Assembly: GCA_002238945.1 (NCBI GenBank)
Contig: MPNI01000009.1
Coordinates: 25,252-89,251 of the forward strand
DNA from: Proteobacteria bacterium bin106
GTDB taxonomy: Bacteria; Bdellovibrionota_B; Oligoflexia; Oligoflexales; Bin106
Reading direction: 5' to 3'
Length of the DNA: 64,000 bases
The notes below the pieces were generated by a model. The model had not been told where the DNA came from, searched no databases, and worked only from the letters and a program-made list of their open reading frames with translations. Within the stretch, counting starts at the first letter, position 1, and the number at the start of each line of letters is the position of its first letter. Made by a program: the position numbers and the translations under genes. This document shows, one piece after another, positions 7,264-64,000 of this stretch.

Positions 7264-7647
7264 GAAATTTCCTATCTTTCCTAACTTATTAACAAATGAT
7301 TCATTGCAATATCATAAAGCTTCACCCATGATGCAACGAGCATATCTATACAGCCTACTCACTCCATCAGGCTCACACATATCGTCTTGATGAAAAAAAA
7401 GTTAATCATCAACTTTTTCACCACCCACGCCCCATCAGCAAGTCCTATCAAATCCAATCACTTCCCGTTACACCAAAGATTATTTATTATAGACATCTCA
7501 CAGCCAGCACAAACAGCTAGCAAACAAGCTAGCAAAAATCTTGTTATGTTTTCAAACAGACTCACATAATATAAACACTTATAATATAAAGTGAGCTCTC
7601 TTAGCACAGTCAAAACCATAAGCACAACATCACAACACAGAGGAACT

Positions 7648-10518
7648 ATGTCTGAGCGTCATGATGATTCACATAAGGATTCTTACAACTTCCATATACC
7701 TTTTCTTTCTTCAAAAGAGGTTCGGAAAGCTTTTATGGATTTCTATGGCAAACACCATCACAAAGTCCTTCCCAGCTCACCACTTGTGCTACCAAACGAT
7801 CCTAGCACGTTATTTATCAACTCAGGGATGATGCCCTTTAAATCCATCTTCCTTGGCCATAACCCACAAAACCTCTCACGTGTTTGCAATACCCAGAAGG
7901 TACTGCGCGTATCAGGAAAACATAATGATCTTGATGAAGTAGGACTGGATGATTATCATCACACCTTTTTTGAAATGTTAGGACATTGGTCCTTTGGTGA
8001 TTACTTTAAAAAAGAAACCATCCTTCTTGGTTGGGAACTGATGACAGAGGTTTACAAATTTCCTAAAAACCGCTTATTTGTCACAGTTCATCATTCTGAT
8101 GATGAAGCCTATGAGCTGTGGTGTAAAGAAACCGACATAGAACAGCATCGCATTTTACGTTTTGATAAAGATAATTTTTGGGAGATGGCTGCCACAGGTC
8201 CCTGTGGCACATGCTCTGAAATTCACTTTGACCGCGGTGATATTCATAGCCAAAAAGCCACTTATAACCATCCCATACACGGAGTGAATGGCAAAGGTCA
8301 TCGCTACGTAGAACTGATCAATTTTGTTTTCATCGCTTTTCAAAAACTTAGCGATGGTGGTTTACAACCTCTAAAAGAAAAACATGTGGATACCGGTGCT
8401 GGACTCGAAAGGTTATGTGCCATACTTCAAGGACAGGCATCTAATTATGAAACCGATCTGTTTAAACCCCTCACCCACCATATAGCCACACTCCTAAATG
8501 CTCCTTACCATAAAGGAGAGAAAGGAACACCCCATCGCGTCATCAGCGACCATATCCGTGCTGTAAGCTTTGCTATCGCCGATGGTGTACATTTTTCCAA
8601 TGAAGGCAGAGGCTATGTCATCCGACGTATTCTCAGACGTGCTCTACGTTATGGTCATAAAATTGGTCTTAAAACCCCTACTCTTTTTCACCTCGTTGAC
8701 CCTCTCAGCACCATTATGGGTACCACTTTCCCTGAACTTGCAGAACGTCAAGACTTTATCAAAGAGATGATCCATAACGAAGAAGAACAGTTTCTCAAAA
8801 CCCTACGCAAAGGATTGAATAAGCTCGAAGAGATTATGGCTAATATAGCTGCCACAAAAACAGCAAAGCAGCCTGCAACCATCCATGGTCGTGATGTCTT
8901 TACCCTCTATGACACCTATGGTTTTCCCATAGATCTTACAGCTCAAGTAGCGCGAGAACACAGCTTACGTATCGATGAAGATGGCTACCATAAAGCGATG
9001 CTTGAACAAAAAAATCGCGCCAAAAAAGCCCAGATGTTCACAGATCTCAATAAAGATAACTGGACATATTTAAGCGAAGATAAAACCACCACATTCTGCG
9101 GCTACACCACCCTAGAATACCCTGACGCTCAAACCCTGGCTATGCGCCAAGATAGCAAGGATGGCAATATGTATCACTGTATATTAAAAACCACCCCTTT
9201 CTACCCCACCTCTGGTGGTCAGAAAGGCGATAAAGGCTGGTTAAAAAATGATCTCCTTACCTTTGAAGTTACGAGTACTGATTATCATATGGAACACATC
9301 ATGCACACCTGTGTTCTCAAAAAAGGCCAACCATCTCACAACTTTCAAGAATGTGGCACTTTTTACGCCATGGTCAATAAACAGTACAGAAGACGTACCG
9401 CACAACACCATTCCACCACACATCTTCTCCACGCTGCCCTCAAAAAACACTTCAGTGAAGACATCACTCAAAGAGGTGCTTACTACGATGAACATATTCT
9501 CCGCTTTGATTTTTCCTTTCCTCGAGCCCTCACCACAAAAGACCTCCACTATCTTGAAAACACTCTCAATACAACCATTCGAGACGCTCTACCTGTAACG
9601 GTTGAAAACATGCCTTTGGCTTTAGCCAAAGCGAGTGGAGCACTCACTTTCGCAGGTGAATCCTACGGCGAAGAGGTACGAGTCTTAACCATGCAAGATA
9701 GTAACAATGCTGATCAATGGGTTTCAAAGGAATTATGTGGAGGAACACATGTCCACAACACAGGAAGTATTGGTATCATGATCATTCTCTCAGAGAGTGC
9801 TGTAGCTGCAGGAATTCGACGTATCACGGCAAAAGCTGGTGATGCTGCTTATGAATATATCAAGCTCCAACAACGAGAACTTTACAGTATCTATCAGACG
9901 TTTTCGGTGCCTTTTTCCACAAAAACCTACCTCGAAACCCTCAAACATACCACACCGTCAACAGATAAAAAGCCACAAGCCTCACCTTCTGATCAACTTC
10001 CAGCTCTAAGCTACGCCAAAACGCTCAAGGAAAAATCCACTCATCAAGAAACCATTATTAAAAAACTCAACCGCGAGCGGATTGAAGGACTTGCTGCAAC
10101 AATCAAAGAAGACACACAAACACACACACATGGCCATCATATCATTGCCCATGATGTCACATACCTGGCATGGGATAACACATTACTCACAGAGTTATCT
10201 GCTAAAATAACCCAAAATCACCATGAATCTTTCATCGCTTGTTTATACACTTACAATAAACAAGCCAAGCCAAATACAACACAATCCACAGCCAATATCA
10301 CCCTTTTTGTCTCAGTATCCACAGCACTACAACCTACTTGGCATGCTGGAAAACTGGTCAGTTATTTATGCAAACAGTGGCAAGGACGAGGTGGTGGCAG
10401 ACCTGATCGAGCCAAAGGAGGCATTAAAGAATATAGCTCATCCAGCGCTAGCTTCAAAAAAGCTCTCACAGAGCATATATATGAGTACAACGCCACTAAC
10501 AAGACATCTACATCCTAA
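7648..10518 (+). CDS. alaS: Alanine--tRNA ligase
   Basis: FYGKHHHKVLPSSPLVLPNDPSTLFINSGMMPFKSIFLG, AATGPCGTCSEIHFDRG, RRRTAQHHSTTHLLHAALKKHF, ELCGGTHVHNTGSIG, GGGRPDRAKGG. Start ATG 7648 is preceded by agagga; the ORF-track start 7591 is upstream. Confidence 0.97.
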   Translation: MSERHDDSHKDSYNFHIPFLSSKEVRKAFMDFYGKHHHKVLPSSPLVLPNDPSTLFINSGMMPFKSIFLGHNPQNLSRVCNTQKVLRVSGKHNDLDEVGLDDYHHTFFEMLGHWSFGDYFKKETILLGWELMTEVYKFPKNRLFVTVHHSDDEAYELWCKETDIEQHRILRFDKDNFWEMAATGPCGTCSEIHFDRGDIHSQKATYNHPIHGVNGKGHRYVELINFVFIAFQKLSDGGLQPLKEKHVDTGAGLERLCAILQGQASNYETDLFKPLTHHIATLLNAPYHKGEKGTPHRVISDHIRAVSFAIADGVHFSNEGRGYVIRRILRRALRYGHKIGLKTPTLFHLVDPLSTIMGTTFPELAERQDFIKEMIHNEEEQFLKTLRKGLNKLEEIMANIAATKTAKQPATIHGRDVFTLYDTYGFPIDLTAQVAREHSLRIDEDGYHKAMLEQKNRAKKAQMFTDLNKDNWTYLSEDKTTTFCGYTTLEYPDAQTLAMRQDSKDGNMYHCILKTTPFYPTSGGQKGDKGWLKNDLLTFEVTSTDYHMEHIMHTCVLKKGQPSHNFQECGTFYAMVNKQYRRRTAQHHSTTHLLHAALKKHFSEDITQRGAYYDEHILRFDFSFPRALTTKDLHYLENTLNTTIRDALPVTVENMPLALAKASGALTFAGESYGEEVRVLTMQDSNNADQWVSKELCGGTHVHNTGSIGIMIILSESAVAAGIRRITAKAGDAAYEYIKLQQRELYSIYQTFSVPFSTKTYLETLKHTTPSTDKKPQASPSDQLPALSYAKTLKEKSTHQETIIKKLNRERIEGLAATIKEDTQTHTHGHHIIAHDVTYLAWDNTLLTELSAKITQNHHESFIACLYTYNKQAKPNTTQSTANITLFVSVSTALQPTWHAGKLVSYLCKQWQGRGGGRPDRAKGGIKEYSSSSASFKKALTEHIYEYNATNKTSTS

Positions 10519-10888: not shown

Positions 10889-11803
10889 ATGAAATGCCAC
10901 TTGTATTTGCTACGCACTGCAGCAATGACTCTTTGTTTTGCTGCAATCGCCACAGGTTGTGGCAATATGACATCAGCACCGCAAAATCACCAAACATCGA
11001 GGTTACATTCTGTAAATGACGGATCCAATTATTTTATCATAACCAATGCAAATAATGATTCATCATCTCTAACTTTTTACTCATGTTCTGTAATAAGTGA
11101 ACAAGAAACCCACATACTCCAAAATCCTACAGCGCATCCCCACTATTGTGTCAGTGCATTTCAAACAGCAGATGGTTTGCCACTTACTGTCAGTAAACAA
11201 TCCCTGCTAAGCAAAGAAATCCAAGATTTTCTAACCAAGAACTGGCAAAAAATCAAAACTTTGAATCAGATCACTCTTAAAGAAATGAACCTCAATGATC
11301 ACAATGGTAATCATTTCATATATTTTGCTGCTATGACAACTTTGAGTGGTCTCATAACATTAGGAATATCCATAATAACAAAAAAACGCCTCTTTGAAAT
11401 AGCTAGTGGATTGCTCTCAATAACTTCATTTATTATTTTTGGCTACGCTGCAGGAAGCAGCTTAAGAACATTCGATGCCAGATATCACTACAGAGAAGCA
11501 AAAAAAGACCATACTCTCAGAGCAAAAACACATTTTCCATTAACCATACATAAAAACATCCATTTTGACACACTGGCTAAAGAAAACAACCTAACAAGTA
11601 GTGATGAATACCAGTATTTTCAAAATATCATTAAACCTCTTGGCAGTATCTCAAACGAATATCAAAACGAAGTAGCCATCAATGATACTTTTTATAAAAA
11701 CTTTGCCAAATTCCTTCAAAAGCTAAACGTAACTACAAACAAAGAGATATCTTTATATTGCCTCATAAGCCTTACAAAAACAAAAGAATGCAACCCAATA
11801 TGA
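10889..11803 (+). CDS. Lipoprotein, paralogous family 1 (DSSSLTFYSC)
   Basis: Lipobox AAIATGC; NANNDSSSLTFYSCSV...CVSAFQTADGLPLTVSKQSL; hydrophobic hairpin; C-terminal FYKNFAKFLQKL..YC....EC. Confidence 0.8.
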   Translation: MKCHLYLLRTAAMTLCFAAIATGCGNMTSAPQNHQTSRLHSVNDGSNYFIITNANNDSSSLTFYSCSVISEQETHILQNPTAHPHYCVSAFQTADGLPLTVSKQSLLSKEIQDFLTKNWQKIKTLNQITLKEMNLNDHNGNHFIYFAAMTTLSGLITLGISIITKKRLFEIASGLLSITSFIIFGYAAGSSLRTFDARYHYREAKKDHTLRAKTHFPLTIHKNIHFDTLAKENNLTSSDEYQYFQNIIKPLGSISNEYQNEVAINDTFYKNFAKFLQKLNVTTNKEISLYCLISLTKTKECNPI

Positions 11804-12099
11804 TGTAACATAGTTTGTTACTGCTAAACGAAGCACTTGCCCAACATAGCAAGCGTTCATATAATACAAACTACCTAAGCAGATAGATTTGTAAGTTAAC
11901 ATAGCGTAACATACAGCATATGACCAAGAAGCACAGCAAACATTTTGTTGCTAAAATGAAGAATCCTGATATACATCTCATGTTAACTCATGTTGGCACC
12001 CATCTTGCAAGTCATATATTATTCTTACTTTTAATAAGAAGTTCATTAGATTATACGAAGATATAAATTGGCAAACCATCTTACAAGGAGAAATTCATC

Positions 12100-12954
12100 A
12101 TGCAAAACAAAACTCATTATCACTTACTCTACACTCTAGCTTGGACTCTTTTCTTAGCAGCTACCAGCGTCAGCTGTGGCAGTAGTAATCATACAACACC
12201 CCAGAGCCAAGATGAGTCTCAGCTAAGTTCTGCAAGTAATAAGTCCAGTCATTTTGTCATAGCAGATGCGAAAGACGATTCCTCATCTCTGACTTTTTAC
12301 TCATGCTCTGTAAGTAACAAAGAAACAGACAAACTTAAAGACCCTGCAGCACATCCACAAAACTGTGTCAGCGCATATAAAAACTCTGATGGTGAGCCGC
12401 TAACTGTTAGCAAAGAGCAAATGAAAAGCAACGATCACCAAAATTCTTTAGCTCAACATTTAGAGAATCTTAAACAAACACACCAGTCAGATATAAATGA
12501 TAGAAAGATTATAAAAGCTGATGTCGGACAACAAATGACATATTATTACTTATTTGTGGCTAGTGCCGCAGCTATATTGGCCGGTATCTTAGCAACCAAA
12601 AGTCTCCAGGTAGTGTTATTAACCACAGGAGCATTGGGCATGGTATACGTAGGACACGGCACCACAATGAGTAAGATACGCAGAAACTCTCGTTCAAATA
12701 GCTCAAAATGGCCTACATTAGGAAACATTGCAAAAAATGATTCGCAAGAAGCTAAACAATTGAATGCTAATCTTAAAAGCGCTCTCGAATCTTACGATCA
12801 ATTATCCAAAAATACATCTCAAAGAAAACTAGATTTTGATGGTAAATTTTTCAGAAAATTTGCAAAAATACTTGAAGATACTAAGTTAGTAAAAGAAAAT
12901 GAGATTTTTGAATATTGCCAAATAACTTCAGAAATAAAATGTAGCACCATCTAA
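12100..12954 (+). CDS. Lipoprotein, paralogous family 1 (DSSSLTFYSC)
   Basis: Lipobox AATSVSC; DAKDDSSSLTFYSCSV...NCVSAYKNSDGEPLTVSKEQ; hydrophobic hairpin; C-terminal FDGKFFRKFAKILEDTKL..YC....KC. aaggag RBS upstream. Confidence 0.82.
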   Translation: MQNKTHYHLLYTLAWTLFLAATSVSCGSSNHTTPQSQDESQLSSASNKSSHFVIADAKDDSSSLTFYSCSVSNKETDKLKDPAAHPQNCVSAYKNSDGEPLTVSKEQMKSNDHQNSLAQHLENLKQTHQSDINDRKIIKADVGQQMTYYYLFVASAAAILAGILATKSLQVVLLTTGALGMVYVGHGTTMSKIRRNSRSNSSKWPTLGNIAKNDSQEAKQLNANLKSALESYDQLSKNTSQRKLDFDGKFFRKFAKILEDTKLVKENEIFEYCQITSEIKCSTI

Positions 12955-12958
12955 TCTT

Positions 12959-12982
12959 TATCCCATTCATTATCCCATTCAT
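12959..12982. repeat. 12-bp tandem duplication
   Basis: tatcccattcat x2. Confidence 0.85.
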
Positions 12983-13056
12983 TAAACAAGACGTACCACT
13001 CTTCTTCCTTGCTATAGATCACAACAAATCTAAAGCAAGGAAGATTTACACGTTGT

Positions 13057-13210
13057 TCATCTCGTGTTAACTCATATTGGCATTCATCTTACAAGTTATA
13101 TATTATTCTTACTTTTGACAAGAAACTCATTATCACTTACCCTACACCACTCTAGCTTGAACTCTTTTCTTAACAGCTACCAGCGTCAGCTGTGATGTTA
13201 CTCATAAAAT
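13057..13210 (+). pseudogene. Decayed 5' fragment of a family-1 lipoprotein gene and its upstream region
   Basis: catctcgtgttaactcatattggcattcatcttacaagttatatattattcttactttt...actcattatcacttaccctacaccactctagcttgaactcttttcttaacagctaccagcgtcagctgtg closely matches 11975-12050 joined to 12110-12180; the segment with RBS and start codon is missing. Confidence 0.82.
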
Positions 13211-13325
13211 ATGGGACGAGATATAAAGTAAGAAAGAACAGTTGCGCTTACACAAAAAGAGACTTTACAGACGAAGAAGGGGAAACAACCTCATCCATAG
13301 GTAAAGTTACAAGACTGAGGTTATA

Positions 13326-14216
13326 TTAAGGCTTGTTCTTTTGACTTTTACTTTTTTTAGGTAAGCCCACAGAATCACTATTATGACTATCAACATCGAA
13401 ATTGAACACAGTCGATTCTGCGGAGCTGCTAGAGCCATGTGTTTTTTCATTGGTGCCTGAGTCTATCATAGTGGACAATCCATAGGTCAATGCAATTCCT
13501 CCCAGCAAACCTGCAATTGATGGGATGAGCAATGCAGGAGCCAAAGCCTGGCTCTCAAGTCCCACCGATGCTGACAAGGCAATACCAGTAGAAATACCGG
13601 CAGCAACAACCAAAAGACCTAGTAACGCTGCTGTTAAATGACTACTAGCTTTCTTGATCTCCATATCATTTAGATCTGACTTATACAACTTTTCAAGTTG
13701 ATCCAAATCTTGTGGTAAAGAATCTTGGCTTTCAAGACTTTGCAAAGATTGTTTGCTAATAGTGAGCGGCTTACCATCTGCTAATCTAAATACATTTACA
13801 CATTTTTCTACATCTACAGAAGAGTTATGGGATTCTGCAGCTTCCATTTCACTTACAGGACACGAATAAAAAGATACTGATGATGAATCATTTTTTGCAT
13901 CTGCTATCACAAGAACATTAGAACCAGCAAACAAGCTATCCGAGTTATCATTAGAGGGATTATAGTCATCGAAGCTATCATCAAAGCCCATCGCATCATC
14001 GAAGCTATCATCAAAACTATGATCTAAATCCTCAAGATCAAGGCTATCATAAGCAGAACTTAATTGAGATAGATCTTGATCATATGGTTCTAAATTATTT
14101 ACACCAGTGCTGGCACAACCAATGGCTTTAGCAGCTAATAAAGTAGTTAGCACTACTGAATACAAAAGTTTTACGTAAATTTTCATAATCGCTTCCTTAA
14201 TCCATGATCTAGCCAT
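13326..14216 (-). CDS. Lipoprotein, paralogous family 1, with acidic SFDD repeat
   Basis: Lipobox AAKAIGC; DAKNDSSSVSFYSCPV...CVNVFRLADGKPLTISKQSL; hydrophobic hairpin; HSFDDSFDDAMGFDDSFDD repeat near the N-terminus. Confidence 0.8.
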   Translation of the reverse strand: MARSWIKEAIMKIYVKLLYSVVLTTLLAAKAIGCASTGVNNLEPYDQDLSQLSSAYDSLDLEDLDHSFDDSFDDAMGFDDSFDDYNPSNDNSDSLFAGSNVLVIADAKNDSSSVSFYSCPVSEMEAAESHNSSVDVEKCVNVFRLADGKPLTISKQSLQSLESQDSLPQDLDQLEKLYKSDLNDMEIKKASSHLTAALLGLLVVAAGISTGIALSASVGLESQALAPALLIPSIAGLLGGIALTYGLSTMIDSGTNEKTHGSSSSAESTVFNFDVDSHNSDSVGLPKKSKSQKNKP

Positions 14217-14879: not shown

Positions 14880-16690
14880 AGTATTTGAATAAAAATCGGG
14901 TGTCTAAGATTTTGATTCAAGTTGCACTTTTAGTTGTTTGAATATCTCTTTTTGCAAAGAAGTAGGACTGGCAATCGATGGAACCAGAGAGTCCTTATTT
15001 GCAAACTTCATCCAGCACATAGATATTGTTGATAGCTCACTTATCAACGAAGGGAATGTTAGAAAAGGAAAGCCTGCTGAGTTACAACGAAGATTCGCCT
15101 TACGCTTACCCTTAGCTGAGGGAGATTTTTTCTTAGAAGTCACTGAGTACTCTGGAAAAATCTCCTCATCATCAAGAAGCAAGGTTTTAAGCGCTTTTCT
15201 CATATGCCATTCTACGTAATAAGCTAATACACAAAGAAACATATGCGCCTTCATCATTTCTTCAGGCTTCACTGATCTAGCCTTGATATCCTCTTCCTTA
15301 AGAGACCTAAAAGCTCTCTCCATTCGAGCTAGATGCTTATAAGAAGATATAACTTTCTTGGGACTCATGTCTTCCTTTGAAAGACTGGTTGCCATAACGT
15401 AAAGCCCATCAATGTTGTTTTCTTCGCAAATAGCTTCTTGGTTTCTTGAGTAAGTCAGGGAATCGTCTTTGATCTCTATATCAAAGAAAGGCTTTACGCG
15501 ATATTTATCTAGAACACGCCCCACACGCTCTTCAATTTTGCGAGAGCCTTTAAGAGTATACTTTTCTCTTTGAGTGGCTTCTTGCACGCCCAAAAGATCC
15601 TTTTCTGCACGATTTAAATCTTTTTCTCGTTTCCGTCTTCTCATCATTTCTCGACTGGTGTTATGGCATATGATTAAACGCATTCCAGGATACTCATCAC
15701 TTTCGACTTCACAAATATTATGTGCATCAAAAAGAGAAGTCTGTATTATCTGATCCTTTGTTTTCATGATTTTTTTTAAAGATGACTTTTTAAGAACAGA
15801 AATCCAATCCATACCAAATGATTTGATATCCTTGTTAATATCCATTTGCGTAACCATACCGCGGTCATCAATAAAAACAAACTTTTTTAGCCCAAATTTA
15901 TGACGTAGTTTATCTATTTGATGAGATACTGTGGAAAGATCAGCAAGATTACCTTTAAAGGCCTCTACAGCTACAGGGCAACCATCGCCAGTTGTGAGCA
16001 ACCCAAATTTCATCTCAAGATTCTTTTTTTTCTCTTTTTTCTTACCAGGGACATGAGGATCAGTTGTTGCTTCTATCTGAACCGAATGGAGATCATAAAG
16101 AACAATAGCTCCTTCACTTAGATGTTTCTTTGCCAGGTTTTTCTGGGTCTCATCTTGCTTTTCAAGCAACCAGTCCATGGCACTATATAGATCTTCTTCT
16201 TTCGATTCTGTTACACCAAATTCAAGACCTAGAGTTGATGTAGGTAAGTTGTGATTTGGATCATTATGTTTATTTTCTAGATCTTTTTGATCACATTGCC
16301 AACCATCACAGCTGAAATAATGTGCTTGTGGATCTGCAATACGAGATGCAATCATCGCTAAACAAATAGAATGATATTTTGATTTCTGATCTCCTATCAT
16401 TTCCGAGATATCGAGGTTATCCATAATGCCCTTCACCGCTGCCACATGGCCGTGACTCAAGGTTCTTCTAACTTCCATAATACTTTGAGGTCCTTTGGGC
16501 ACAATCTTAGCATTTTCATCTTTGAGAAGACACTTAATGAGCGGTATAAGTTCCTTAGGTAGCTTAGTAATGTTAGCCACTGTCCGTTTATGGCTTCTGC
16601 CATTCTCCCAATACGACTCCCGAATAAGTACTGTTTTTTTATCTGATCCATGATTTGGTACGATTTCAACATACATACTTCATCTCCTTA
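14880..16690 (-). mobile_element. IS1634-like insertion sequence (approximate extent; terminal repeats not resolved)
   Basis: Based on the transposase; no convincing terminal inverted repeats identified by eye. Confidence 0.55.
14904..16676 (-). CDS. IS1634-family (IS4-superfamily) DDE transposase, apparently intact
   Basis: IVLYDLHSVQIE, FVFIDDRGMVTQ, ARMERAFRSLKEEDIKARSVKPEEMMKAHMFLCVLAYYVEW (E-containing YREK-like region); N-terminal RESYWENGRSHKRTVANITKLP. Confidence 0.9.
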   Translation of the reverse strand: MYVEIVPNHGSDKKTVLIRESYWENGRSHKRTVANITKLPKELIPLIKCLLKDENAKIVPKGPQSIMEVRRTLSHGHVAAVKGIMDNLDISEMIGDQKSKYHSICLAMIASRIADPQAHYFSCDGWQCDQKDLENKHNDPNHNLPTSTLGLEFGVTESKEEDLYSAMDWLLEKQDETQKNLAKKHLSEGAIVLYDLHSVQIEATTDPHVPGKKKEKKKNLEMKFGLLTTGDGCPVAVEAFKGNLADLSTVSHQIDKLRHKFGLKKFVFIDDRGMVTQMDINKDIKSFGMDWISVLKKSSLKKIMKTKDQIIQTSLFDAHNICEVESDEYPGMRLIICHNTSREMMRRRKREKDLNRAEKDLLGVQEATQREKYTLKGSRKIEERVGRVLDKYRVKPFFDIEIKDDSLTYSRNQEAICEENNIDGLYVMATSLSKEDMSPKKVISSYKHLARMERAFRSLKEEDIKARSVKPEEMMKAHMFLCVLAYYVEWHMRKALKTLLLDDEEIFPEYSVTSKKKSPSAKGKRKANLRCNSAGFPFLTFPSLISELSTISMCWMKFANKDSLVPSIASPTSLQKEIFKQLKVQLESKS

Positions 16691-24020: not shown

Positions 24021-25706
24021 ATGAGACAGTACCCATCTATCATTCATTGCCATCAATCATCATTAAAATTCCATTTCATCTCACTCCTGCTATGCTACGC
24101 TGCTTTATCTTGTGGCCCAGCACACACAACATCTTCATCTCTAGCGAGCACACAAGAAAACCTAACCCCTAGCAAGCTATGTGACAATCAAACAACACAG
24201 GTCATAGAACATAAAGACAAAAAAAGTGAAAAAGAAGTGTATGTCCTCAGCTGGCAAGAAGAAGATAACTTCCATTGCCTGACAACTTTGAAAGAACATC
24301 AACACAGCTCAAAAAACTCAGATATATTGTTTTATGCTGAGCAGGATAATACCTCCACAAGTCACCGCCTTATGGGCAGTGTAGTTACCGGTATATCTTT
24401 TATAGGTGGTGTAAGCACTTTACCCACAACCATAACAAGCACAGGCTCTACTTTATGGCAAAACATCCTCAATAAAGAGCTCCGTTGGATCCTCTCAAGA
24501 GCCCAAAAGAATGCTCAAAAGGTTGTGCTCTCACTTGCAAGCCTCGGAGCCATAGGAGGTTATGTGTATCTAAAAGACAGACAACCAGGACTATTTTCTC
24601 AAGATCCCCGTGAGCTAAGTAGCACTTTAGCTCACAGCAGAAACCCTCAAACCATCAGCTTAAAACAGCCTCTCAAAACACGTCAAAATGATAATTTCTT
24701 ATCTCCTCGAAGGGATCCATCCAACCCTGCTGTCGGCTTTATTTCAGACGATGATCGATCTGCTTACAAAGCATTTCGCTCTAAGCTTGATGCATCGTTT
24801 CTGAATGAAGAAATCATCAACGAAAACGTCCATGAAGACGAACTCCTAAAATACAACGAAGGCAGACAACAGGTTAAATACCTTGAAAAAGAACTTTATG
24901 CCTTATCTTTACATGCACTTCATCATCATCTAGAAAACATAGCCTTTTTTGATGAAGACCTTCTCAGTCTTAAAGATATATCTTATTTAAGCGCACAAGA
25001 TCTCAAGTTGTTTCTCAACACCTTATCTCTTCAAGAGTTTGACTATTCTTTTTCAGAAAGACTATCCATTACCATTCTTAAACATATTTTTTTGGATAGA
25101 ATCATGGGACTCCGTAACACTTCTGTAAGAGAGATTTTAGCAGCATATAACCTGACCACTGATACTCAGGAACTTCAGTTATACAAAACCTCAGAAGAGG
25201 CACTCAAAAAACGCTTTTCAAACTTCACTAAGTCCCTCCTTATTTTGAAAGGACACACTCTCGGTTATCAAACACCACTCAAATATCTTTACTCAAGCTT
25301 TGATAATGTTATTGAAGTGGCTAATATTCTTAAAACCATCAACCATCCACTCACTACTTATATCAGTGGCAAAAAAGCTAGCATCCATGATTTAGATTTT
25401 GATCTCTACAAAGCTTTCTTTCATGCTCTAAGTAACAGAGAATTTGTCAAAAGGCACTTTAAAAGCCTAAAAATTGCTCTTCATATTGATAAATATCAAC
25501 AGGACAAACTTTTACACAATATTTTCTTAAGCTCTGTATTTCGTCTCCAGGATATATCTTCTAGAAAGCTCTTATCTAAATACGACATTGTCTATGCAGG
25601 ATTTCTCGTCCCTTCTTTAGACAGACAGCTCAGAAAAGAATTGAAACAATTCAAAACAAATCATTACCTCAAAGGCCTCATCATTAAAGCTAACTCTAAG
25701 AATTAG
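24021..25706 (+). CDS. Large lipoprotein, paralogous family 3
   Basis: Signal/lipobox LLCYAALSCGP; SHRLMGSVVTG...VVLSLASLGAIGGYVYLKD similar to the next gene (GYRLLGTAAE...WVLSLAGGAIAVGYLVGK). Confidence 0.7.
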   Translation: MRQYPSIIHCHQSSLKFHFISLLLCYAALSCGPAHTTSSSLASTQENLTPSKLCDNQTTQVIEHKDKKSEKEVYVLSWQEEDNFHCLTTLKEHQHSSKNSDILFYAEQDNTSTSHRLMGSVVTGISFIGGVSTLPTTITSTGSTLWQNILNKELRWILSRAQKNAQKVVLSLASLGAIGGYVYLKDRQPGLFSQDPRELSSTLAHSRNPQTISLKQPLKTRQNDNFLSPRRDPSNPAVGFISDDDRSAYKAFRSKLDASFLNEEIINENVHEDELLKYNEGRQQVKYLEKELYALSLHALHHHLENIAFFDEDLLSLKDISYLSAQDLKLFLNTLSLQEFDYSFSERLSITILKHIFLDRIMGLRNTSVREILAAYNLTTDTQELQLYKTSEEALKKRFSNFTKSLLILKGHTLGYQTPLKYLYSSFDNVIEVANILKTINHPLTTYISGKKASIHDLDFDLYKAFFHALSNREFVKRHFKSLKIALHIDKYQQDKLLHNIFLSSVFRLQDISSRKLLSKYDIVYAGFLVPSLDRQLRKELKQFKTNHYLKGLIIKANSKN

Positions 25707-25818: not shown

Positions 25819-27546
25819 ATGAACACCCTAAAGCACATAACCACAGTACTATTCCTGCTGTGGCTATGTCATATGCCTTTTTTAGCCTACGGCAACACAA
25901 CTCATAATGATTTAGCAAAAGAAGCTCAAAACAACTATCTTCTCAAAAATACTGACGGAGCATTTGCTCTAAGCTCTTGTCGTAGAGTCATCACACACAA
26001 AGAAACACAAAAAAACTCCTGTTTAACTCAAGCATTTATCCCTGAAAGTGATAAGCTCTTAGCTCAAAATCTTTCTGAAGTTCATAGCTCTGCAGCCATC
26101 ATACCTGTTATAGGATACAGACTTCTCGGCACAGCTGCTGAATCATGGGGCAAACATCTCCACTGGCTGCCTAAAAACACACTGACAAAATGGGTGCTTT
26201 CTCTAGCTGGAGGAGCAATAGCTGTGGGTTATCTTGTGGGAAAACTTAATGGTACTGAAGATACTGAAAAGGGAATATTTTTTTCAAAAAATCAAGAAGG
26301 AAATAAAGAAAAAAATTCATCTCAAAATGATAGTAAAGAAGATCTTTCCTCTCAAGATCATAACGAAGAAGATATGCTCCTTCCACCAGATCCCGACCCT
26401 AAACCCATAGCACCTATCCACAACAACCACATGGATAAAGATACTTTAGATGTTGGCGAAAATTTATTACCATTAGTCTGGGAACAAATGAGTGATGATA
26501 ATTTTGACGCCCAACTTATAGAGCATAATATATCTTTACATGACTATCAAAAGGCCATAACAAAAGTAGAAGCATTTGCTAGAAAAACACTGCTTATTTC
26601 ACCTACAGCTAAAGACGATCATAGTAGAGACGATCTTTCTGGGCTGTTTTCTAAAAACAGAGACTATATAAAAAATGTACCACAAAGTGTGCTAGATACT
26701 TATCAATATGCCTTTAGTGCTTCAAAGTTCCTCCTTGCAGACTATCTCAAAATCATTAAGCACAAACTCATATTTTTATTCAATGATATTGAACTAACAA
26801 GGGATGGATACGCACTTTACACACGTCCACTCGTCAAACATTTTGCAACACAGATGCCACGTATCATCAATGAAGCGTGTACTTCCATAAGTAACACGAG
26901 TTCTAATATCGATCTGCCGGATTGTTTGGAGTTATATAGCTATATTATACTTGAAGGCATTGATCCTTCCCAGTCGTCTGAAGAATATGCAGAAAGCAAA
27001 GCTAAGCTCTATAGAATAATGGAAGATATCGATTTGTCTTCATATGATGAGTTTATAGATCACAAATACCGTCTCAAAGATATATTGAGTGGCAGTGAAA
27101 TTGATCCCTCTCCAACAGGAGAGTACCTGGCTAGCAAATTTCGTCTCAAGTATTCCATAGACGACTACTCTTTAATCAGCTCAATACTGTTTATTCACAT
27201 AAGATACCACCTTCTTCAGATCGAAGAAGCCTACATCGATGATGTTAAGCAACGTTTTGCTGCTATTGATAAACTTCACAGCAAAGCCATGAAGTTCTAT
27301 TTTGATTTACCTTCTTATCATCACATCACTCGATCCAGTCGCACAAAAATACTACAAGACTTAGTCACCAACCCTTCACAATATCTCAAAGATCACCCCC
27401 AACTCGCTGCCTTCAATGACAGAGTGTATACGGATACCTCACTGAAAAAAATATTTGCTTCAGAAGGCTTCCACAAGATCCACTTAGAACCTCATGGCAG
27501 TGATCGTTACTTGCACCTTTTTGATAATATTCTACCCTTTAGATAA
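25819..27546 (+). CDS. Large secreted protein, paralogous family 3, with internal repeats
   Basis: Signal peptide LWLCHMPFLAYGN; SSCRRV...KNSCLTQAF; hydrophobic segment; three IDPS..EY..SK.RL-type repeats. Confidence 0.7.
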   Translation: MNTLKHITTVLFLLWLCHMPFLAYGNTTHNDLAKEAQNNYLLKNTDGAFALSSCRRVITHKETQKNSCLTQAFIPESDKLLAQNLSEVHSSAAIIPVIGYRLLGTAAESWGKHLHWLPKNTLTKWVLSLAGGAIAVGYLVGKLNGTEDTEKGIFFSKNQEGNKEKNSSQNDSKEDLSSQDHNEEDMLLPPDPDPKPIAPIHNNHMDKDTLDVGENLLPLVWEQMSDDNFDAQLIEHNISLHDYQKAITKVEAFARKTLLISPTAKDDHSRDDLSGLFSKNRDYIKNVPQSVLDTYQYAFSASKFLLADYLKIIKHKLIFLFNDIELTRDGYALYTRPLVKHFATQMPRIINEACTSISNTSSNIDLPDCLELYSYIILEGIDPSQSSEEYAESKAKLYRIMEDIDLSSYDEFIDHKYRLKDILSGSEIDPSPTGEYLASKFRLKYSIDDYSLISSILFIHIRYHLLQIEEAYIDDVKQRFAAIDKLHSKAMKFYFDLPSYHHITRSSRTKILQDLVTNPSQYLKDHPQLAAFNDRVYTDTSLKKIFASEGFHKIHLEPHGSDRYLHLFDNILPFR

Positions 27547-32794: not shown

Positions 32795-33955
32795 TTAACG
32801 GATATGTTTACCGTCTTTATCAGTGGGCCTTTTGTACATATACGGATTACCTGTATTCCAAGAACGTCTAAGCGGTATACATAGAGGTTCTTGTTGGTTC
32901 ACATAATCGTGAAAGGTATATTTAGGTAAACACTGATAAGCCACTTCTCTGTAAGTCCACTTCACATCCATGACAAATTGACCAAGAATAGGCAAGAGAT
33001 TAGGAATACGTGTACTCACGGATTTAACATTGCTCTCATCTGTAGAGATAAGTTCTTGGAATGAACTGGTTAAAGTTACATTAGGAGTGTCTTGAATCCA
33101 AAAATCAGTAAGAAGACTATTGCATTCATTTCTTACAGCCTCATTGAGTTTGGTTAACATCTCAGAGTGCGGAGAAGGATCCTCTACATTTATGGATGCT
33201 TGAATATTACTTAAAGACCTTAGACAATTATTGGCCTGAGTCACATTTTTATGACGTATCTTTTCTCCACCAAGCACACTAGCGCCGTAAAGAATAGGAG
33301 CAGCTATAATCACCGGTAAGTTTTTTATACCCTTGACAGCCACATTAGATAAGAGGACAACAGCACCCACACCACCACTGGCCACAGTAACAAGACGGTA
33401 TTTATTCATGAAATGTAAATACTGTGAAGAATCTCCCTCATTAGCAAGATAATAAGGAGTTTTAAATAGATCACTATTCTGAAGAACGCGTGAAGAAAAT
33501 GTGATGGGTTGGCCATCTTTATCCACAAAAGCATGAACACATAAATTATCCGATGGCTGCAATGAACCGAAGCTTGATCCTAAATGAGGATTTTGTTTAA
33601 GCTGGCTACCAGAAACAGCACCCGGCCCTGGTCCCGAAAGATCATCGGAATTGATCAATGAATCCACTGTCGAATTTATGCGTGCAACAACACCTGGATT
33701 TGATTTTTTAGGACACACCATAAACGTCACTAATGTACCAGTTCTATTGGCAGGCGTTAAAAAGACTTGGTAATACTTGCCTTTGATTCCACTAAGATCA
33801 GACGTGGTTGGCTCTGTAATCACAGAGTTAGAAGTAGCACGACAACCAGTTGTAATAACAATAGCCATAACCAAACTCGTCCATATTTTGAACGCAGTTT
33901 TCCATGTAGGCGATAGCAATGTAGGTGATGATGTTAAGTTCTGTGCAGTCATCAT
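32795..33955 (-). CDS. Lipoprotein, paralogous family 2
   Basis: Lipobox AIVITTGC; VITEPTTSDLSGIKGKYYQVFLTPANRTGTLVTFMVCP...LCVHAFVDKDGQPITFSS; C-terminal SVSTRIPNLLPILGQFV..YQCLP...LCIPLRRSWNTGN. Confidence 0.78.
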   Translation of the reverse strand: MMTAQNLTSSPTLLSPTWKTAFKIWTSLVMAIVITTGCRATSNSVITEPTTSDLSGIKGKYYQVFLTPANRTGTLVTFMVCPKKSNPGVVARINSTVDSLINSDDLSGPGPGAVSGSQLKQNPHLGSSFGSLQPSDNLCVHAFVDKDGQPITFSSRVLQNSDLFKTPYYLANEGDSSQYLHFMNKYRLVTVASGGVGAVVLLSNVAVKGIKNLPVIIAAPILYGASVLGGEKIRHKNVTQANNCLRSLSNIQASINVEDPSPHSEMLTKLNEAVRNECNSLLTDFWIQDTPNVTLTSSFQELISTDESNVKSVSTRIPNLLPILGQFVMDVKWTYREVAYQCLPKYTFHDYVNQQEPLCIPLRRSWNTGNPYMYKRPTDKDGKHIR

Positions 33956-34026: not shown

Positions 34027-35109
34027 TTAATTTTTGGGCCCTTTAGCTCTGTTATAGAATACATTTCCTGTATCCCAAGACTGCCCGAGAAGAATACATA
34101 CCGGATCGACTGGTTTGTTGCCGCTAAAAGGTGAATAGCTACCCCTAGGCAAGCACTGGTAGTTGATTCCGTCTGGCTCCACCCAACCAAGGCTAGTGAC
34201 AAAGTCACCAAGTAATGGCAAGAGATTAGGAATACGTGTGGAAACAGTACGAACATAGTTAGGGTTAGTATCAACCATATCAGGAAAGCTATCCACTAAA
34301 GAAACATACACACTCTCATCAACCCAATACTTAGCTTTATAACCCGCACACTCGGTTTCAATGGCATCTTTAACAAACTCCAAGGTATTTAAAGCTCCTT
34401 GCTTATAATCTTGATCACCAGTGGCAGGAGAATTGGGTGCGGCATCTGCACTGCTGACTTGCGTACCTGACGAATCAAGCTTCTCCGTTGATGTTTTGAT
34501 CAATCTAAGGGCTTGTACGCAGCGTTGCGCCTTAGCTGTACTGTTCATTCTCACCGCCTCTGTACCAACACCCGTTCCCACTAAAGTAACCATTGTGGTT
34601 ATCATACGAGGACTAAAGGCCTTAGCGGCAGTAGCAGGATGAGCAAGACGAGGCAGAGACACCAACAAAAAGATAACGCCTCCAAGAGCAGCAGAAGCCG
34701 TCATAATATCAGGCCGCTTATGACCATTCCATAGATAATACTGGTAACCTAAATCATTTTCAACACCTCCATCTTGCAAGACACTGCTATTTTTCACAGT
34801 GCTACTGGCAAAGGAAACAGTACGTCCGTTTTTATCTAAAAAAGCTGGCACACATCCTTGCTGCAAAGACTTCTGAGCCGATAGTCCAGTACTAATCAGT
34901 GATAACTCACTAGGACATACCACAAAATTCAGCCGTGAAGAATCATCTGCTTTTTTCGTCAAAAATAATTGATAGTACTTATCTGCAATCGCGCTAAGTT
35001 CACTTTGGCTAGGTTCAGTAACCAATGTATTATGACGACCAGCTGAACATCCTAGTGCTACCACAAGTAATGATACTGACCATAGTATGGTTAATTTACG
35101 AAAGAACAT
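34027..35109 (-). CDS. Lipoprotein, paralogous family 2
   Basis: Lipobox LLVVALGC; LVTEPSQSELSAIADKYYQLFLTKKADDSSRLNFVVCP...GCVPAFLDKNGRTVSFAS; C-terminal TVSTRIPNLLPLLGDFV..YQCLP...VCILLGQSWDTGN. Confidence 0.78.
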   Translation of the reverse strand: MFFRKLTILWSVSLLVVALGCSAGRHNTLVTEPSQSELSAIADKYYQLFLTKKADDSSRLNFVVCPSELSLISTGLSAQKSLQQGCVPAFLDKNGRTVSFASSTVKNSSVLQDGGVENDLGYQYYLWNGHKRPDIMTASAALGGVIFLLVSLPRLAHPATAAKAFSPRMITTMVTLVGTGVGTEAVRMNSTAKAQRCVQALRLIKTSTEKLDSSGTQVSSADAAPNSPATGDQDYKQGALNTLEFVKDAIETECAGYKAKYWVDESVYVSLVDSFPDMVDTNPNYVRTVSTRIPNLLPLLGDFVTSLGWVEPDGINYQCLPRGSYSPFSGNKPVDPVCILLGQSWDTGNVFYNRAKGPKN

Positions 35110-61509: not shown

Positions 61510-63045
61510 TCAATAACCATCCATTTGATAATACATGAAAGATAAGTATTCATTTCTTAAACAATCATTACAATATATATGACGATCTAATTCACTTGAA
61601 GTACTATAACTAGCTTTTACAAGAATACTTTCAGAAAGCTCCATAAAACGATTTGCATCAGTAAGATAATTTGTAAATTTATAGCACAAAACATGTTCAG
61701 CTATTATTCTATATACCATAGCCTCTTCTACACCAAGCCCGTTATCTTTAAAAATTTTTGCAACTTCTTCGAGAATCTCCTGACCTTCATCAGGAGAAAA
61801 ACGATGAACATTTTCAAAAGCTGTTTTTTCATTAGAATCATATAATTTATTTACAACTTTACTAAGAGATTCAGCATGTTGGAAATGCACGAAGAATTCT
61901 AAAGAACATTCAAATTCTTCAAAATCTAAAGCAAATTTAAAAGCTTTTTTATGAGCAGATGTTTTCTGAGATTTTGTCTTCAAAGATGTCATATAACGTG
62001 TATAGTCCTTGATTGCACATGTTATAGAAAACATATCCCATAAACAAGATTGTCTTTTTACAGTGTCTTTCAATGCCTTATAAGATTCTGCGCGAATCTC
62101 TAAAAATGCATATTCTTGAGGAATAATCAATGTTCCCTTAAAACCATCTAACAATGATAACGTCTTCTTAGGCTTGCCAACAACACCATTATAGAATAAA
62201 CCCAATAAGCATATCGTCTCATGTCGTTTAAGCTGTTCTTTAGTAAATAAAGACAACAAACCTTTCTCATCTTTTGTCAAAAAGCATATATGACGCATGC
62301 CATCTTTCAAGCGAGCAGAAAATATTAACATATCATCAATATTCTCAACCATATCCAATAACTCTTTTGATTCAATGCCTTCCTTTTCTTCCATCTCAAC
62401 GATCAGTGCTGCACATCTCTGAATCTCTTTTTCAAATATTGATTGAGCAACAACAAACTGGTCACTATCAAAATACTTCATCACTTCTAACATAAACTGC
62501 GGAAATTTATAAAAAAGCTCTCCGTAATAATCAGATTCACTTTCATATGGCTCGCTAAAACAAGAAGTATATCGAAAAACATACTGAACAGTCTCATTGG
62601 GATCAGGAGATATATCGCAAATTATTTTCAATAATATTTCTTTAGCATTATCGAATAAACTAGAAAAATATTCTCTGTAATCTTCAACTTTTGTGATTTT
62701 TCTTAACTTTTCACCTAAAATCACATACTCCCATAAAACCGGATAAGCTTCAAAAAAATTCATTTCCACAAGATTATTACACAATTTCATTTCTATCGCA
62801 GCTATTTCATCATGCCATTTCTTAACTTTTTTATGAGACAAAACCCTTTTAGGACGCTGCTTAGTTTTGATGCTTTTAAGAAGTAACTTCGCTAAATCCT
62901 CAGCACCACCATAATGGATGGCAAGATAGTAACGCATATCTTGCTTCAGTTCAGGATACTGGCCACAATAGCTCAGTAATAACTGAGAAAGCTTTTCAGC
63001 CCCCATTCCTTTTAAGTTTTTCTCATTAACAACAGTTCTTGTCAT
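61510..63045 (-). CDS. DUF6880-like protein
   Basis: N-terminus VNEKNLKGMGAEKLSQLLLSYCGQYPELKQDMRYYLAIHYGG resembles DUF6880 N-termini (NxKNLExLGAxxLAxLLL); helical-repeat-like protein. Confidence 0.5.
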   Translation of the reverse strand: MTRTVVNEKNLKGMGAEKLSQLLLSYCGQYPELKQDMRYYLAIHYGGAEDLAKLLLKSIKTKQRPKRVLSHKKVKKWHDEIAAIEMKLCNNLVEMNFFEAYPVLWEYVILGEKLRKITKVEDYREYFSSLFDNAKEILLKIICDISPDPNETVQYVFRYTSCFSEPYESESDYYGELFYKFPQFMLEVMKYFDSDQFVVAQSIFEKEIQRCAALIVEMEEKEGIESKELLDMVENIDDMLIFSARLKDGMRHICFLTKDEKGLLSLFTKEQLKRHETICLLGLFYNGVVGKPKKTLSLLDGFKGTLIIPQEYAFLEIRAESYKALKDTVKRQSCLWDMFSITCAIKDYTRYMTSLKTKSQKTSAHKKAFKFALDFEEFECSLEFFVHFQHAESLSKVVNKLYDSNEKTAFENVHRFSPDEGQEILEEVAKIFKDNGLGVEEAMVYRIIAEHVLCYKFTNYLTDANRFMELSESILVKASYSTSSELDRHIYCNDCLRNEYLSFMYYQMDGY

Positions 63046-63519: not shown

Positions 63520-64000
63520 TCATTCTGCCAATTTAAGATTTTGGAGCAATCCAACAAATTTTTTATGAAATGATCCATCTATTGAAGGCTTATGTGGCAA
63601 TGGATTGCGATGATGATCCAATTTCATACGAAGATATAAAGGATCGTGATACCGTGCACCAAGTAGTCCTTGTGATGAATCATCGGCTTTTGACAAAACA
63701 TCTGACTCTGAACCAGCACTGCGAGAGCTACTTGAATCATCCCCAAAGAAAGCGTTAAAAGCCCAAACTGTGGATGCAGTTATAGCACTTGCAAGCACTG
63801 ATACGATCAACGCCTGATGACTAGGTTTCTGTTTGAGTAATCCAAGTGATATTGCCATGTTATAAGCAGCCAACATGACTGCAAAACTCATTACCGTAGT
63901 TCCAAAAATATTAGGAGTAGCTGCTAGTTTAACTTCTATATCGTTTAGATCTAACTCATACAGCTCTGCCAGTTGATCCAAATCTTCTACCAAAAAATCT
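63520..64000 (-). CDS. Partial lipoprotein, paralogous family 1 (N-terminus beyond window)
   Basis: RFLVEDLDQLAELYELDLNDIEVKLAA matches PQDLDQLEKLYKSDLNDMEIKKA of the 13326 gene; hydrophobic hairpin; SIDGSFHKKFVGLLQNLKL matches the C-terminal motif of the 12100 gene. Frame stays open past 63993. Confidence 0.75.
   Translation of the reverse strand, partial: DFLVEDLDQLAELYELDLNDIEVKLAATPNIFGTTVMSFAVMLAAYNMAISLGLLKQKPSHQALIVSVLASAITASTVWAFNAFFGDDSSSSRSAGSESDVLSKADDSSQGLLGARYHDPLYLRMKLDHHRNPLPHKPSIDGSFHKKFVGLLQNLKLAE

Follow-up and report, generated by a model that had tools for sequence, protein, structure and literature searches.

The question raised by this locus is whether the adjacent genes 10889+, 12100+ and 13326- belong to a described protein family and, if not, what kind of protein they encode and how their copies evolve. 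The window analyzed here is the full stretch of 64,000 nucleotides, whose end is also the end of contig C122. It comes from a draft genome (G000; 2.59 Mb, 148 contigs, 82% complete) with a single congener, G001, among the genomes examined. All three open reading frames are present as claimed in a preliminary description, and they have in common a lipobox and the motif D-S-S-S-[LV]-[TS]-F-Y-S-C ... C-V ... D-G-x-P-L-T. The window contains seven members of the family in total (Table 1): these three, the partial gene 63520-, and the genes 30940-, 32795- and 34027-, which had previously not been linked to the others. The pair 32795/34027 has a paralogous duplicate at G000:C82:104147-106456. A DDE transposase gene (PF01609; window 14904-16676, minus strand) adjoins the 13326 gene, and IS3-like fragments, identified by eye, lie between family copies on contig C91 (L021:10359-11198).

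Table 1. Family members, their parts and associated sites in the window.
Feature	Position	Strand	Basis or remarks
Family member, 304 aa	10889..11803	+	Lipobox ATGC; mature cysteines 1, 43, 64, 268, 278
Sigma-54-type promoter (predicted) upstream of 12100, TGGCACCCATCTTGCA	11994..12009	+	Exact pattern match
Family member, 284 aa	12100..12954	+	Lipobox SVSC; mature cysteines 1, 44, 64, 248, 256
Module at the N-terminus of 12100, with lipid Cys, S-x-L, F-Y-S-C ... C-V-S-A-Y ... D-G-E-P-L-T	12175..12450	+	Alignments
Region of the hydrophobic hairpin in 12100; its second arm is weak	12565..12690	+	Hydropathy
C-terminal block of the 12100 gene, FDGKFFRKFAKIL ... EYCQI...C	12844..12951	+	Alignment
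Sigma-54-type site with one mismatch, TGGCATTCATCTTACA, before decayed copy	13078..13093	+	Pattern match
Pseudogene: what remains of a lost copy is its signal-peptide region, which matches 12110-12178	13123..13194	+	Sequence match
Family member, likely start 14186	13326..14216	-	Lipobox AIGC; acidic insert precedes the motif; C-terminal cysteine pair lost
Divergent member, 437 aa	30940..32253	-	Leave-one-out E 1e-13
Divergent member, 386 aa, six non-lipid cysteines	32795..33955	-	Leave-one-out E 9e-38
Divergent member, 360 aa, six non-lipid cysteines	34027..35109	-	Leave-one-out E 2e-37
Partial member, C-terminal half only, truncated where the contig ends	63520..63999	-	Near-identical to copy G000:C91:22839-23660

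Searches of Pfam, NCBIfam, PADLOC and PHROGs gave isolated chance-level matches and no credible one, except for an S41 domain in two fused members (see below). The earlier proposal that the proteins of 10889, 12100 and 13326 belong to no described family thus held for Pfam, none of whose families they match. A sequence search of the PDB with the family likewise yielded no credible match. AlphaFold2 models, built from alignments of six window proteins only, reached mean pLDDT values of 45 and 50. In one such weak model the N-terminal module of 12100 appears as a short beta meander, and a Foldseek comparison of the second low-confidence model with the PDB returned nothing credible (best E 0.41).

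Iterative profile searches of the first loci collected 36 related open reading frames, and 75 once the congener was added. For statistical support we used leave-one-out scoring, in which each row was dropped in turn together with all rows more than 60% identical to it; this test is mildly generous, since the alignment had been made with the left-out row. E-values below 1e-9 were obtained for 64 of the 75 rows, among them 10889 (1e-58), 12100 (4e-47) and 13326 (6e-34), and no reversed sequence scored. The profile thus has statistical support. The half-gene 63520 gave no profile score once its near-identical sister was removed. One candidate with pentapeptide-like repeats (L028:3981-4820), picked up by the initial iterative search, was discarded on its leave-one-out E of 0.001. 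The window genes 24021+, 25819+ and 56574- have a similar layout, yet do not match the family profile and are not claimed as members. The first two (24021-25706 and 25819-27546, both plus strand) encode long exported proteins with a signal peptide, early cysteines and a hydrophobic segment. A sigma-54-like 16-mer inside 25819 recurs on contigs C127 and C146, and the gene may therefore have paralogues.

The merged genome-wide searches of G000 resulted in 48 clusters, two of which contain two adjacent genes each. Together with 30940 this amounts to about 50 loci, or about 51 when fragments are counted, and the congener carries at least 37. The expansion, which had been described as local, is therefore dispersed across the genome and common to the genus. 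Most of the copies whose surroundings were read lie among ordinary housekeeping genes and not in islands. Among 65 genomes of the phylum, full-length profiles matched only these two and, as a trace, G004. A profile of the N-terminal module added a second family of the same order, with five matches in G004 and six in G013, and a single match in a different order of that class (G061, E 1.2e-4). One further G004 member was found by direct reading within a tandem array of three (L222). This array (L222:3553-10704) comprises three long family members and stems from a nearly complete genome of the other family of the order. The remaining 60 of the 65 genomes gave no match with either type of profile. 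Class and phylum comprise an identical set of 65 genomes, which merely hints at a phylum with a single class. In the relatives outside the genus, lipobox and N-terminal cysteine pair are retained and the C-terminal pair is missing. When the close subfamily was used as a pattern against 85,488 species genomes, which has little power to detect distant members, no relative emerged; the viral contigs, plasmids and phages searched contained none either. We take the family to be an undescribed lipoprotein superfamily that is greatly expanded in one genus. The genus itself appears unusually deep by its alanyl-tRNA synthetases: the enzyme encoded in the window (7591-10518, plus strand) has only about 48% identity with its counterpart in the congener, a value as low as for other families of the order.

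The layout of the members comprises the lipid cysteine, S-x-L...D, F-x-x-C, C-[VI]-x-A-[FL], two hydrophobic segments and a C-terminal YC[LV]P...C. In an alignment of 36 diverse members with a mean identity of about 12%, C1, C45, C66 and C299 never vary, and F42 and C318 hardly do. The C-terminal block (YCxx...C) holds a second conserved cysteine pair that the preliminary description had missed; in the close set, C273 and C281 are invariant. By pattern, most members have a hydrophobic segment followed by the lipobox cysteine, which occupies its column in 92% of 64 members. It is replaced by tyrosine or serine in a few copies (L010, L013, L014, L028, L036). The number of non-lipid cysteines is even in 62 of the 63 complete members (four in 47, six in 15), which suggests disulphides and agrees with disulphide-compatible cysteines. 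The sole odd member, L095, has an extra cysteine inside its second hydrophobic segment. Extra cysteine pairs occupy clearly different positions in different clades, so that both partners were apparently acquired jointly on several occasions. Exported proteins with disulphide bonds show such a pattern. The genome encodes a DsbA-like protein that is exported and has a CPAC site; a search for DsbB was negative. Lipobox and cysteines together strongly suggest lipidated, disulphide-bonded envelope proteins, in line with the envelope location proposed at the outset. Good support exists for the family as such, for its cysteine frame and for its lineage-specific expansion.

Most short members have two hydrophobic segments with a short loop between them, the second arm being weak in several. 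They thereby share a bilobed hydrophobic domain, taken here as about 40 or more residues, with the chlamydial Inc proteins, a large, taxon-restricted set with low sequence similarity (PMC3290821). In analogy to these, the proteins might be delivered or surface-displayed membrane-inserting proteins, exported whole, whose hairpin enters the membrane of a target cell. The presence of many paralogues of little similarity and their restriction to one taxon would suit such a role. So would the long inserts: 6 cysteines were counted in 3371 residues for inserts of at least 100 residues, and 0 in 2866 residues for the distant relatives, as would be expected if the entire chain were exported. In a few cytosolic proteins taken for comparison, the share of cysteine is about 1.5%. 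We nevertheless consider this explanation quite improbable. Incs are type III secreted effectors that insert into the vacuole membrane of the host, whereas the present proteins form one recognizable sequence family with paired cysteines and a lipobox signal peptide, which argues for Sec export and would keep them in the cell's own envelope. Moreover, the loop residues beside both hydrophobic segments exceed the outer flanks in positive charge (Wilcoxon test, p 3e-6 and 0.0017; 44 members), as expected within the genus for an ordinary inner-membrane hairpin. According to these charges the loop between the segments would be cytoplasmic; according to the near absence of cysteine the insert would be exported. 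For an ordinary inner-membrane hairpin the two readings contradict each other and cannot both hold as they stand. Low cysteine content could also stem from a helical or coiled-coil composition, and neither line is decisive. The disagreement poses a concrete, testable question about the topology.

The positive-inside signal would also fit lipoproteins of the inner membrane that control envelope quality or regulate peptidoglycan, acting with, or derived from, tail-specific proteases of the S41/Prc type. Each genome has one member found to carry an S41 peptidase domain upstream of the family module, L086 (L086:2167-4602; Pfam E 1.4e-5) and L233 (L233:1214-4324; E 9e-19, with an additional weak match to a TSP N-terminal domain). 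This resembles S41 proteases such as Prc and CtpA; all other family members scanned are without the domain. In both fusions, inspection by eye found Ala or Gly at the presumed position of the catalytic serine of the S41 motif, and the domains may be catalytically dead. One apparently dead fusion per genome is little for a protease-related function, and 50 diverging copies with genome-specific clades would not be expected of a quality-control system. We therefore regard a quality-control role as unlikely.

The relationships among the copies were analyzed with a tree of 75 rows and 156 columns, whose bootstrap is not fully settled and which contains several long branches. The DSSS genes form a clade of nine (starred), all from G000, so that the DSSSLTFYSC group is a clade confined to this genome. 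In the same tree, 20 G000 genes group with one G001 gene, and G001 has separate clades of its own. The labels change 11 times on the tree, compared to at least 15 times in 200 shuffles. One pair, L084 and L102 (L084:3635-4684 and L102:3413-4414), shares 80% identity across G000 and G001. This identity, together with the different neighbours of the two genes and the low identity of the alanyl-tRNA synthetases mentioned above, suggests lateral transfer.

Gene-wide dN/dS values (Nei-Gojobori) ranged from 0.26 to 0.54 over ten pairs, those of the DSSS clade being looser (0.30-0.54). All are below 1 and indicate purifying selection at the level of whole genes. The idea that the copies diverged because variation was positively selected was thus not borne out, whereas an undescribed lipoprotein family shaped by duplication and divergence was. 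If duplication were largely neutral, surplus copies would drift without function. Some copies are indeed broken, truncated or without a lipobox, and dN/dS reaches 0.54. Cysteines, lipobox and C-terminal motif are however retained at about 12% identity, most frames are intact and dN/dS is clearly below 1, which makes neutral drift very improbable and already disfavoured. A pseudogene remnant and near-identical duplicates rather point to a birth and death of copies. In the window, a decayed family copy spans 13078-13194, including a sigma-54-type site with one mismatch.

The partial gene 63520 had been counted as a further copy with lipobox and motif. Its linker, hairpin and C-terminus are present in the window; the part that would hold lipobox and motif falls beyond the contig end at base 64000, so that neither is visible there. 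A candidate for the other half, with tyrosine in place of the lipobox cysteine, is located at the end of contig C91 and is probably the missing part. AGATTTTT is common to the ends of C122 and C91, and C91 carries a near-identical copy about 2.6 kb further in; the assembly therefore probably broke at a repeat. A gene for a DUF6880 family protein (PF21810) is located nearby at window 61510-63045 on the minus strand.

To describe candidate promoters we used the pattern TGGCAY-N5-TTGCW, with the reversed pattern as control. It matched 29 times in G000 (reversed 0) and 12 times in G001 (reversed 1). Genes of the DSSS clade, or in part a truncated relative, are immediately preceded by six of the exact G000 sites (window 11994, two in L021, L022, L031 and L015), and one further site, in L023, has one mismatch. 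Upstream of the other family members, no exact site was detected. The upstream regions are related by descent, so the six sites reflect conservation after duplication and not six independent gains. The rpoN gene is intact in G000 (RpoN E 3e-62). Sites also occur before two further genes identified by eye, one NrdB-like and one AAA+ activator-like (L240). Two tandem sites are found before the NrdB-like gene in L244 and L246 (G000:C36), with similar copies on other short contigs. The DSSS clade is probably largely under sigma-54 control, and its products would then be made together under a particular condition.

Expanded lipoprotein families are known from other bacteria. Borrelia burgdorferi has many paralogous lipoproteins in a small genome and a single lineage (e.g., PFam143), and its outer-membrane lipoproteins depend on an RpoN-RpoS pathway (PMC8877311; PMC3320556). 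No homology to them is detectable via Pfam, and the present family differs by at least four paired cysteines, a hydrophobic hairpin and copies dispersed among housekeeping genes. The lpl cluster of Staphylococcus aureus likewise consists of tandem arrays of paralogous lipoproteins (PMC4470592); it belongs to another organism, and Pfam indicates no sequence relation.

Taken together, the data may be explained as follows. Each protein would be exported by Sec and then lipidated at the lipobox cysteine. Disulphides would lock a small N-terminal module and, within the genus, the C-terminal motif, and the hydrophobic hairpin between these modules would provide a second membrane contact. The variable part would be the stretch between or after the hairpin arms, of up to about 400 residues. 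Copies would arise by tandem and dispersed duplication, diverge fast while keeping cysteines and hairpin, and then decay. The DSSSLTFYSC copies would be the clade of this genome that is largely controlled by sigma-54 and made together. The products would most likely serve as diversified envelope proteins shown to other cells, be it prey, hosts, competitors or phage. A repertoire of many divergent envelope lipoproteins per genome would also suit immunity or exclusion lipoproteins, with each copy directed against a different toxin or phage receptor binder. We see only a slim chance for such a role, as no toxin genes were recognized beside the copies in the neighbourhoods read and PADLOC gave no match. 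The family is best read as a set of envelope lipoproteins that turns over by birth and death and probably mediates contact with other cells, and we hold this reading to be just as likely right as wrong. The contact function itself, suggested by analogy to the expanded lipoprotein families cited above (PMC8877311; PMC3320556), is the one we favour, with about the same weight as all its rivals together. A bolder version is decidedly unlikely. In it, lipid anchor, disulphide-locked terminal modules and hairpin would form a constant frame for interchangeable, cysteine-free inserts outside the cytoplasm. This new class of envelope protein would provide a contact or membrane-insertion repertoire, partly switched by sigma-54, of a predatory or host-associated bacterium.

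With about 50 copies, a genome of 2.6 Mb invests heavily in a family described in none of the databases searched. Its occurrence in few lineages, the separate expansions in the two genomes of the genus and the sigma-54-type sites suggest a trait that distinguishes these uncultured bacteria, and the paired-cysteine frame offers a handle for finding relatives and testing their function.
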